The position numbers and the translations under genes are program-made. A model generated the notes under the pieces. That model had not been told where the DNA came from and searched no databases. It was given only the letters and a program-made list of their open reading frames with translations. A stretch of 64,000 nucleotides of DNA from Sipunculus nudus (Eukaryota > Annelida > Sipuncula > Golfingiida > Sipunculidae), in contig CM049321.1 in assembly GCA_026874595.1 (NCBI GenBank), forward strand, positions 5,451,479 to 5,515,478, given 5' to 3'. This document shows positions 15,436-63,218 of this stretch, one piece after another. Position 1 is the stretch's first letter, and the number at the start of each line of letters is the position of its first letter.

Positions 15436-18400
15436 TCAACATTGGTTCCTGTTTGGTGGTGGCGGCGAGGACAAGTCAAGATTCCTCTGGAAGAATGGGG
15501 GGTCTCTAACCTCAAGCAGCGGGATCAGTAACCCATCAATCTGCCCAGACGGTCCTGTTGAACTGCTGAACTCGGCAGCTTCTAGATCACGGTAAAACAG
15601 AGGGCCTAGATTTACTATACGGAATATATCACCGCCAAGCGGGAACATGTCAAATTTCCCCAACCTTCCGAACTCCATGGTCAGCTGATCGGGGGGATTC
15701 CCCATTGTGACATTGACGTTGCCGTAACCATGGCGACCATATAAGCCAACATATTCCTGAAGGTCTCGGTCGGCCTTTCCATGTTTTTCCGGGTCAGGTG
15801 GAATATTTACATGTTGCCTTGGCAACCCCATATCATCTACATATTTATAAACCTCTCCCGGTGGCCTGGCGAAGGAACACGCGTACGATACGTTCAGCCA
15901 GCTGTCTTCGCCAAGTAAGGTGTCTATCACAAATGCGCTGACCATGGTACGCGCGGGCCCCTGGTCATAATGGTTGAAGGACAGTGCAGATCCAATGTTC
16001 ATGTCACGCAGAGTCATTTGTTCTGAGTGGTACCCTCGAAAGTCCCCTCGGTGAGTGATAGTTCTGTATTCTGAAATCACGAACAGTGAAACCTGTGTTA
16101 AAAGGCCGCCCGTTTGACTGCCCGAAAGTGATTTTCATTCAAAGGTGGTCTAGTTAGGGAGGTCAGTTAATACCAATATGAATGCATTCGGTTCACCAAA
16201 GGGTGGACTTAATGGACAAGTGGTCTTATAGATAGACGTTTAATATATGTATATATATAGTTTCAGTCAAGTGATTTTGCAGGAGTCTGATTTAGTTTGG
16301 TTCATAAATAAAACCGCCTCATGCTATAGTCAAACCTTCCTAGTCGAGTAACCAGCGCCATCTAGTGTTCAGTTTTTGAATTCTCGCATACTTGAAAGCG
16401 CTTTATTCATACTATACCATTTAGATAGCTACGTCTACCATTTAAATGATCAGAACTTTGCTGTTTGGCGCAGTGTGTGTCAGTCTGTTTATGTGTTAGT
16501 TAATACATTATCTCCAAAAGGTGATTTTTTTTCTGTTACACGAATATTTGTTAAACCTGGGCCAGCGGCCAGAAGGCGTGACGTCATCTTGTGGCAGATC
16601 GAACGATGTTTCGAATTTTGATGCGGATCTAATCAAAGTGTCTGCGGGAGTTACGATCTCCATATCGGTGATACTCAAATTCTCGAGTCCCGTTTGAAGT
16701 CTACTTTTGACTCGAGGGCCTAGGACTGCGGAGTTAAGGACTCGGGGTATTAGCCCAAGTCCATCTCGATTCCGATAGAAAAAAAGCTCTGTCACGTACT
16801 AAAAACATTATATATGCATTTGCGAACTGAATATTGCACGAAAAATGTATATATAATAAGATAAAGCCTACATCAAGAGACAAATGCAATTTAATGGTCA
16901 AGAAAAATGACGCGTTAACTATCATTAACATACACTTGGTTTTCTTAACTGTCCAGTATATATTTCTTTCAATAAGGATATTTGTATTTAACTTGGAGTT
17001 GAACTTATGTTCCTAATTACTCCGGACTCGGACTTGAACTCTGACTCGGGTGGCCTGGACTCGAACATGCACAGATGGACCGGGATGGTGTGTACTCGAT
17101 TAAACCATGTCTCTGTGTGCGCTGTAGTTTCAGTATGTATTTTGGGTTAAAAAAGGAAATATTTATTATACGGGAGTATTTCACCAAGCAAAGTAACACT
17201 TGTTGTATTGATTGATATCTACCTTTATAATACTCTCTGCTCCAGCCCTTCGCATACCCGGCTACTCCAAAGGAGACTGGAAAATCAGGACGCAGATAGA
17301 GGTTGTTTGCGTCAGTTCTGGACGGCAGGTGATCAGAGGAATACAAAGTTTCCAATTCCTCTTCCGGGAGGATTTCAACTCCTTCTTCGTTGGTCCCTGA
17401 CAGAAGGAAGTGTAACCACTTTGCCATATCAACAGCCGTTGATGATATGGATATTGCTGGTGCTATCAGCCTTCCTGCTCTGAAATTTTGCAAGGTAGGG
17501 AGTTAATGCTGTATTTTGAGGTGGGTTTTGAATTTATGTAATTAGAAGAACGAATTCCAGCATTTCTGCACACACATACGTACAGAATTAGTCTGCCTAG
17601 AACATAATAATATACGAGCTTAAGAAACAAAATTGCTGGTGTTTTCCGGTCTATATGATCTTGAATAAAAGCGTCGAGTCTAAATCTATAGATTTACTAT
17701 ACCTGTGTCCTTCAAATGGAACATCGAAAGTGCTATTTCCTATTGTCATGTAAGGTGTCGCGAATAGGTCTCGGTCCTCCCCATCTTGGTCCAGGAAGGT
17801 CGATGACGTCATTCCCAGTGGCTGGAAAAGCTCCCGTCGGACGAGCTCTTCCCACGAGAGGTTTTCGAGCACTTCAGCGACCCTGCCGGCGAGTGTGTAC
17901 ATTAAGTTGTTGTACACATAGCTTGTCCTGAGCTCGGCGATTGCTGGGAAGAAACGCATCCGACTGAAGAATAAAAAAATTATGAAGTTATATTTTAGGT
18001 AATATTAAGGCTTTCTCCCCTCAAGCCAAGGTAAAAATTAACAAGATTTTATCAAAGGACTTCTTGCAAAATCAAATAGGAAATTTTTGCCAAATACGAG
18101 CATCGTAGGACAACTTAAGAAAACTGTGTCTAAAATATTGACCACATGTTAAAAGAGAAACATATAGAAAAGTAGTCCAAGACTGTACTTAAACTCCTTC
18201 TAGGATCTTTATCAAAATATGCTATATCCTGCTAAGGAAATGCGTCACGGGTCACCAATTCCATGGTTGGATCACATGATACCAGTAAAACAAATGCGAC
18301 TGACTCTTGCCCTCGGACGGGAAAAACAAATTGTCATTTCACAATGGGATATAATCATTTAAATTAAAACACCCACGGTATACCGTTATACCGGTATAAT

Positions 18401-62900: not shown

Positions 62901-63218
62901 AACGTGTACTCACTTTTCATGCTGTCTCAGTAAGACACCCAGCAGAGTTCCTGTAAACTGCTTGGTGACAGATCCTATATTAAACGCAGTATTCTCCGTC
63001 ACCGGGGCCTGGGTGTCAATGTTTGCCAGTCCATAGCCTTTAGCGAGGACAGTTGTACCGTTGCGGACACCGGTGACTGCCAGCCCGATGAAGTCATAAC
63101 ATTCCATGACACCCTGCACAAAGTTGTCAATCTTTTGGATTTCCTCAAGGGTTAGCGGTGTAGAATAAACTGCAGCCAAGCCACAGGATAACAAAACCAA
63201 TATGACAATCCGTGCCAT
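53945..63218 (-). CDS. Gene E: secreted serine beta-lactamase-like protein (gigasin-6-like), 5 exons, complete
   Basis: Exons on the minus strand are 62914-63218, 60031-60204, 58646-58906, 55701-55957 and 53945-54579. All junctions are GT..AG and the phases add up to 543 codons plus stop. Residues 1-19 form a signal peptide. Exon 1 carries the SxxK nucleophile box (SVTK, S83/K86), exon 3 the YxN box (YNN, Y177) and exon 5 the HxG box (HGG, H339). The spacings of about 94 and 162 residues fit class C beta-lactamase/peptidase S12 folds. The last 200 residues contain a YIGIYG..GYGNVNV stretch like the lipocalin-like C-terminal domain of that family. NVS/NVT sequons suggest a secreted glycoprotein. 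It ends NRNTC with a terminal Cys. An AATAAA signal lies at 53812-53817 and a TATA candidate at 63353-63360. Related bivalve proteins occur in shell matrix; the substrate is unknown. It is the only copy here with every exon open. Confidence 0.88.
55028..55381 (+). mobile_element. Probable solo LTR, 354 bp
   Basis: The element starts TGTTACAGG and ends CCGTAACA, so it has TG..CA termini with a six-base inverted repeat, and is flanked by ATAT on both sides. A TATATAAAG box lies near 55310, about 70 bp from the 3' end. No internal retroelement coding region or second LTR is nearby, which fits a solo LTR left after recombination. It is in intron 4 of gene E, opposite to the gene. The class is not determined; a short target duplication fits Gypsy-like elements. 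Confidence 0.55.
56361..57983. mobile_element. Candidate non-autonomous DNA element with TAGGGCTG ends
   Basis: The stretch begins TAGGGCTGATACGATA and ends in CAGCCCTA preceded by runs of ATCGATATT/CGATATTTCG words, like hAT-type elements whose ends start TAGGGCTGnnCGATA. There is no convincing 8-bp duplication and no transposase. A SINE is nested near its left end. It sits in intron 3 of gene E. Confidence 0.4.
56500..56790 (-). mobile_element. tRNA-derived SINE in intron 3 of gene E
   Basis: On the minus strand GCTTAGAGCAAAGGAATCG is followed by GTTAGTTCAAATCTCAG, a B-box-like sequence, then a body of about 190 bp with ACTCACAAACCAGTGCG, ending near GGGTAACACC. Confidence 0.65.
58205..58490 (+). 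mobile_element. tRNA-derived SINE in intron 3 of gene E
   Basis: CTGTGACTTAGGGGTAGAAC (A-box-like) and GTGAGTTCAAATCTCAG (B-box-like) are spaced as in a tRNA. The body resembles that of 56500-56790 in reverse order of position, and is interrupted by a G15 run at 58386-58400. Confidence 0.65.
59110..59660 (+). repeat. GAGTC-rich blocks in intron 2 of gene E
   Basis: CGACTCGAGTCCAAGTC, GAGTTCGAGTCACTTAGG, TTTTCGAGTCC and TCCGGGTTTTCGAGTCAGG are scattered in two clumps around 59.15 and 59.55 kb, more loosely than in the other genes. Confidence 0.45.
60475..61631 (+). repeat. Tandem duplication in intron 1 of gene E, unit 1
   Basis: It matches 61632-62288 head to tail, starting at TAATTACGGC and ending at CCTTCAACG. 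Unit 1 has about 495 bp extra (about 60981-61478), AT-rich and unrecognised. The two copies differ at many single bases. No exon-like open frame is seen. Confidence 0.85.
61632..62288 (+). repeat. Tandem duplication in intron 1 of gene E, unit 2
   Basis: Partner of 60475-61631, lacking its central extra block. Shared words include CCACGCTGAGCGCTGCTTGG and GTAAGTGCCCGGCAACTCAT. Confidence 0.85.
62690..62850 (+). repeat. Dispersed repeat family R1, copy in intron 1 of gene E
   Basis: CTGCCAGGATTCGATAAGGG, GACAGTATCCAAGGACAATC and GATGGAAAGGGGACGAGTGT match other R1 copies. It is 64 bp from exon 1 of gene E. Confidence 0.65.

Follow-up and report, generated by a model that had tools for sequence, protein, structure and literature searches.

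A tandem array of probably secreted S12-type serine hydrolase genes in Sipunculus nudus, with one intact copy among decaying neighbors

We analyzed a 64-kb stretch of DNA from the sipunculan Sipunculus nudus (GenBank assembly GCA_026874595.1, contig CM049321.1, positions 5,451,479 to 5,515,478; hereafter the window), which contains no N letters and carries a tandem array of genes for putative serine hydrolases of the S12 type. Searches of both strands with tblastn and exon profiles recovered 22 exon pieces at E values below 1e-7, all on the minus strand, which make up four multi-exon copies (A, B, C, and D), a relic (relic E) with parts of exons 1 and 5, and a 45-bp scrap (Table 1). The E values, ranging from 6.5e-216 to 1.7e-46 for 21 of the 22 pieces and reaching 3.7e-8 for the scrap, rule out chance matches. 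The sole plus-strand profile match at an E value below 0.1 was antisense and lay inside exon 3 of D (E value, 4.3e-5). Exons 2 to 5 measure 174, 261, 257, and 635 nucleotides (nt) in A and D; exons 3 to 5 of B and C follow the same plan, and exon 2 differs (160 nt in B and 173 nt in C). Exons 3 to 5 of all four copies can be aligned free of gaps across 383 codons. Thus, the layout given in an initial annotation of this DNA, namely four multi-exon copies and at least two relics with one strand and one exon plan, was recovered in full. No Rfam family reached its gathering score in the window.

The copies differ in their state of preservation, and the states listed in the initial annotation could each be attached to a copy. 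The intact one is A, which has exons of 305, 174, 261, 257, and 635 nt and is open across 1,632 nt (543 codons plus the stop), with GT-AG borders at all four introns. The one lacking its 5' end is D, in which exon 1 begins at profile position 169 of 305. The two with frame lesions are B, where the loss of 14 nt from exon 2 leads to a stop at codon 184, and C, where 1 nt is lost from exon 2 and a TAA opens exon 4; C is also devoid of exon 1, which the annotation did not mention and which was not found in the window by the exon-profile search of both strands. The two-exon relic is relic E, whose exons 2 to 4 were likewise not found in the window by exon profiles, and the scrap is the 45-bp piece of exon 1. 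Judged by these sequences, A is the only copy within the window still able to make a whole protein, and B, C, D, and relic E are each missing a part that is needed. The predicted product of A contains six N-glycosylation sequons, and its cysteines 40, 397, and 543 recur, as read by eye, in the copies holding those stretches. Separately, intron 1 of A contains direct duplications (60477-60982, 61631-62137, 61483-61631, and 62136-62284; 92% and 87% identity).

Table 1. Positions of the array elements in the window (position 1 is the first nucleotide of the 64-kb stretch).
Feature	Positions	Strand	Remarks
A exon 1	62914..63218	-	305 nt; start codon, hydrophobic signal-like N-terminus, SVTK motif
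A exon 2	60031..60204	-	174 nt
A exon 3	58646..58906	-	261 nt; YNN motif
A exon 4	55701..55957	-	257 nt
A exon 5	53945..54579	-	635 nt including stop; HGG motif, DUF3471-like C-terminal domain
Scrap of exon 1	52985..53029	-	45 nt
Relic E exon 1	51185..51492	-	frame changes and an in-frame stop; 51465-51185 matched by the profile, ATG (51492) identified by eye
Relic E exon 5	50298..50611	-	second half only; 104 codons open, original stop lost
B exon 1	48431..48741	-	311 nt; start, signal-like N-terminus, SVSK
B exon 2	45253..45412	-	160 nt; 14-nt deletion, frame lost
B exon 3	44501..44761	-	whole; YNN
B exon 4	43664..43920	-	whole
B exon 5	42575..43209	-	whole; HRGD box where A has HGGS
B HRGD-bearing frame	42578..43207	-	by sequence comparison with A (HGGS)
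C exon 2	37385..37557	-	173 nt; 1-nt deletion
C exon 3	36325..36585	-	whole; YNN
C exon 4	35556..35812	-	first full codon is TAA
C exon 5	34513..35147	-	open; HRGD box
C HRGD-bearing frame	34516..35145	-	by sequence comparison with A (HGGS)
D exon 1	20151..20287	-	only the 3' 137 nt remain (168 nt lost at the 5' end); SVSK kept
D exon 2	19092..19265	-	174 nt
D exon 3	17703..17963	-	261 nt; YNN
D exon 4	17223..17479	-	257 nt
D exon 5	15436..16070	-	635 nt; HRGD box, open to stop
D HRGD-bearing frame	15439..16068	-	by sequence comparison with A (HGGS)
Segmental unit with B exons 2-5	39313..45763	.	pairs with 29474-37909, about 94-98% identity
Segmental unit with C exons 2-5	29474..37909	.	homology to the B unit ends inside intron 1

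The predicted products of A and D matched the Pfam family Beta-lactamase (PF00144) with 151.2 bits (E value, 5.1e-44) and 135.3 bits (E value, 3.6e-39), respectively, above the cut-off of 27 bits. Proteins of the S12 family are defined by the motifs SxxK, YxN, and [KH]xG, in this order. A carries SVTK, YNN, and HGG; B and D both carry SVSK, YNN, and HRG; and C, without exon 1, carries YNN and HRG. In the last box, the central position is occupied by glycine in A (HGGS) and by arginine in B, C, and D (HRGD, which contains RGD). A scan based on the A/D alignment, in which 70 stretches matched a pattern, yielded 22 bacterial relatives with 22 to 30% identity in the best segment, and SxxK, YxN, and HxG were aligned across A, D, and 22 of these 22 relatives. 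With A alone, none of 14 bacterial stretches was confirmed, and none of 58 was confirmed in a viral collection, the reach of these scans being limited to short patterns. Among the best 60 of the 101 sequences matched in a search of solved structures, the nearest relatives were IS11 (7spn; E value, 1.8e-16) and then Pab87 (2qmi; E value, 2.1e-15). We therefore assign the proteins, on sequence grounds, to the S12-type serine hydrolases with a penicillin-binding protein (PBP)/beta-lactamase fold. Class C beta-lactamases are alike in having an S12-type domain and the same motif order, but membership in this class was excluded by score (NCBIfam NF033085, 56.8 bits versus a cut-off of 415). At the C-terminus, DUF3471 was matched with 25.2 bits by A (E value, 2.2e-5) and 20.5 bits by D (E value, 6.6e-4), both under the cut-off of 29.3 bits. 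A recent transfer from bacteria was also considered and rejected, since the bacterial relatives recovered by the pattern scan are just 22 to 30% identical and the genes have four introns.

The age of the array was assessed from synonymous (dS) and nonsynonymous (dN) divergence by the Nei-Gojobori method, using the 383 codons of exons 3 to 5. Pairs among A, D, and B/C gave saturated dS values of 1.87 to 2.09 and dN/dS ratios of 0.12 to 0.18. These values indicate that the paralogues A, D, and B/C are of old origin and were long kept under purifying selection. Because silent sites between them are saturated, we rejected a fresh expansion; the family had been called expanding in the initial annotation, for which we found no support, as only the B/C pair is recent (dS of 0.03) and neither of its two members is intact. 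In unrooted trees of exon 1 and exon 5, A and relic E were split from D and B/C, with support of 100 (exon 1), 97 (exon 5 DNA), and 89 (exon 5 protein). The remaining exon 5 of relic E differs from that of A by proportions of 0.18 at nonsynonymous sites (pN) and 0.64 at silent sites (pS), which is consistent with past selection on this copy as well.

Between B and D, exon 1 is far more similar than the gene bodies are, which argues that the array is a patchwork. We compared the final 45 codons in exon 1 with exons 2 to 5 (exon 2 up to its codon 36, exons 3 and 4, and almost the whole of exon 5). Silent differences between B and D amounted to 11/36 (0.31) in exon 1 versus 0.68 in exons 2 to 5 (Fisher P = 2.6e-5), and the control pairs showed no such drop in exon 1 (A-B, P = 1.0; A-D, P = 0.55). 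The simplest account is an exchange between B and D, by gene conversion or unequal crossing-over, that made their first exons alike well after the gene bodies had parted. Intron similarity does not extend past 9 nt, and the edges of the putative exchange therefore cannot be placed.

B and C lie in two segmental units that differ by 1.1 to 4.7% across the compared exons, introns, and flanks (3.0% in intron 2, with a 0.3-kb insert set apart), and exons 3 to 5 gave a dS of 0.030 and a dN of 0.009. A comparison of the window with itself showed that the C unit holds about 1.8 kb and 0.3 kb without a counterpart in the B unit. Since divergence of this size is within the heterozygosity of marine invertebrates, and since the units are close neighbors in the same direction, B and C might be two alleles of one locus that the assembly of a very heterozygous animal has set in tandem. 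We consider such a false duplication unlikely: the window has no gap letters, the 1.4 kb separating the two units has no self-match in the window, the extra segments of C are missing from the B unit, and, with a separate lesion in each copy, both alleles would be null. A genuine duplication is the reading that we prefer. B and C carry different lesions, each confined to its own copy and none of them seen in A or D; they therefore arose after the recent B/C duplication. Changes since then comprise 8 silent and 9 amino-acid-changing or stop changes, the latter fewer than the neutral expectation (P = 0.043), a weak sign that some constraint may have outlasted the duplication. A dispersed repeat of about 2 to 2.5 kb was also observed in three copies (1242-3762, 29391-31709, and 39313-41260), two of which lie in the B/C units.

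D keeps an open, well-spliced frame of 1,464 nt, with no lesion besides the 5' truncation. Its first methionine is residue 82, past the catalytic serine (residue 27); the frame upstream of the truncation runs into stops at once; and the missing 5' piece was found nowhere else in the window by the exon-profile search. About 100 bp upstream of the cut (20287) starts a repeat block (20388-27012) that has an inverted counterpart at 3770-8473, with segments 71 to 89% alike and a 29-bp minisatellite inside (6392-6714 and 23265-24004). We infer that the truncation probably came about by a rearrangement involving this block, and the otherwise clean frame suggests that the event was recent. The same clean frame, however, could mean that D is a live gene with a new 5' end, in which an upstream exon is spliced to a cryptic acceptor (TTTTCAG) at the start of the truncated exon 1; an AG is present at this very point, and B and C gained three lesions within a dS of 0.03, whereas D gained none. 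We regard this as very unlikely in view of the immediate upstream stops and the late first methionine. Moreover, no upstream exon is known, the search having been limited to exon 1 homology, and a very recent truncation accounts equally for the open frame.

Based on these results, we interpret the locus as a tandem array of old origin, now decaying, whose genes encode an S12-type serine hydrolase that is probably secreted and has a DUF3471-like C-terminal domain, and give this interpretation a probability of about 0.72. It supports the proposal of the initial annotation that a tandem family of probably secreted genes with an S12 beta-lactamase fold is seen here in several decay stages side by side. 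The history would start with an ancient growth of the array, followed by the later swap of first exons between B and D, the recent duplication of the B/C body, and the present shrinkage. Several points weigh against this interpretation. Secretion is predicted from the look of the N-terminus, and both the expression of A and its five-exon model are predictions. The structure prediction for exon 5 was unusable (mean predicted local distance difference test score [pLDDT] of 30.6), and the C-terminal fold is suggested by weak profile matches, namely DUF3471 under the Pfam cut-off and 4whi at an E value of 0.041. A dS near 2 in the Nei-Gojobori estimate is saturated and gives no age. As for the exchange, the exon 1 test was chosen after the tree had revealed the pattern and concerns one short exon of 45 codons, and the pS values of the other old pairs, taken exon by exon, already vary from 0.54 to 0.80. 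A further possibility, which we find improbable, is that B, C, and D represent an old, functionally distinct HRGD branch, in which exon 1 with the secretion signal and the catalytic serine moved between tandem copies as a module, and that this branch is now disappearing from this genome almost at once while the HGG-type A survives.

Regarding function, the motif set and its long conservation favor a secreted acyl-serine hydrolase acting on extracellular peptides or esters. The hydrophobic N-terminus would send the protein outside the cell, and there, with the lysine and the tyrosine activating it, the motif serine would form an acyl-enzyme with a peptide or an ester, from which hydrolysis would release the product. 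The likeliest substrate is a peptide or ester that comes from outside or from a matrix, rather than an antibiotic. We put an active hydrolase at slightly better than even odds, the remainder being shared by a structural or matrix role and others. The matrix role, as proposed for gigasin-6, would have the protein incorporated into the extracellular matrix of shell or mucus, where it would guide mineral growth or larval settlement, with the enzyme fold mainly as a scaffold. We keep this alternative, although we judge it rather unlikely, because beta-lactamase-domain proteins or genes have been reported from mollusc shell matrix (PMC6662379, PMC5824581, PMC6641155, PMC8059625) and gigasin-6, a shell glycoprotein of 66 kDa, has been linked to the settlement of larvae (PMC9456362); the six sequons of A would also suit it. 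A scaffold would not require the active-site motifs, which are retained in A and D. In addition, the two gigasin-6 peptides printed in PMC9456362 matched neither A nor D beyond chance, their best local scores being reached by 291 to 1,804 of 2,000 shuffled peptides, and an apparent match by eye was rejected for this reason. The gigasin-6 label is thus unproved for these sequences. Two other reports, one of a shell-protein peptide with a nonsignificant beta-lactamase-like match (E value, 0.4; PMC7081993) and one listing gigasin-6 among mussel transcripts (PMC4581086), decide nothing here.

Besides the array, the window contains C-type lectin-like exons between D and C (26022-26375 and 27528-27851, minus strand). 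Joined by hand, they matched a chain labelled TNFalpha (3l9j; E value, 1.8e-4) and tetranectin (1tn3; E value, 5.6e-4), as well as the Pfam families DUF4688 (E value, 0.0099) and Lectin_C (E value, 0.016), both under the cut-off; the single exons had no Pfam match. A remnant resembling a long interspersed nuclear element lies at 8696-10229 (plus strand), with an endonuclease domain (E value, 2.4e-5) and a second open reading frame (9696-10229) that looks reverse transcriptase-like by eye and has no Pfam match.

Large multi-copy S12 gene families are of a known kind in animals, and the view of the initial annotation that such an expansion is uncommon is at odds with families already in print. 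Eight S12 paralogues in nematodes and four animal lineages of the PBP-beta-lactamase (LACTB) family have been described (PMC2266909), and the cluster OG0000159 of a mollusc database, with 167 beta-lactamase-related proteins from 23 species, is tabulated among shell matrix proteins (PMC8059625). Our literature searches on snail mucus and on lineage-specific expansion in bivalves returned no paper. The genes in the window share the S12 fold and lineage-specific paralogue sets with the metazoan LACTB family, especially its "esterase-like" lineage (PMC2266909), but their products begin with a signal-like sequence and extend further at the C-terminus, and human LACTB (7v21) was matched only weakly (E value, 3.5e-5; residues 47-213). 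With OG0000159 and gigasin-6 (PMC8059625, PMC9456362), they have in common a beta-lactamase-related domain, multiple copies, and a similar size (543 amino acids in A, against 63 to 64 kDa). CubicO peptidases of the Pab87 type are octamers that combine an S12 domain with a lipocalin-like domain at the C-terminus. Pab87, described as acting on D-peptides (PMC2651629), resembles the predicted products in having a further domain behind the catalytic S12 part, although its match was limited to residues 27-232. What is specific here is the decay next to an intact copy, the apparent exchange of exon 1, and the HRGD branch.

To our knowledge, few substrates are known for animal S12 enzymes. An intact copy beside broken neighbors that had long been kept may offer natural knock-outs, which could be compared between individuals or related species. 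Furthermore, the exon 1 patchwork implies that whole-protein trees of such arrays can mislead.

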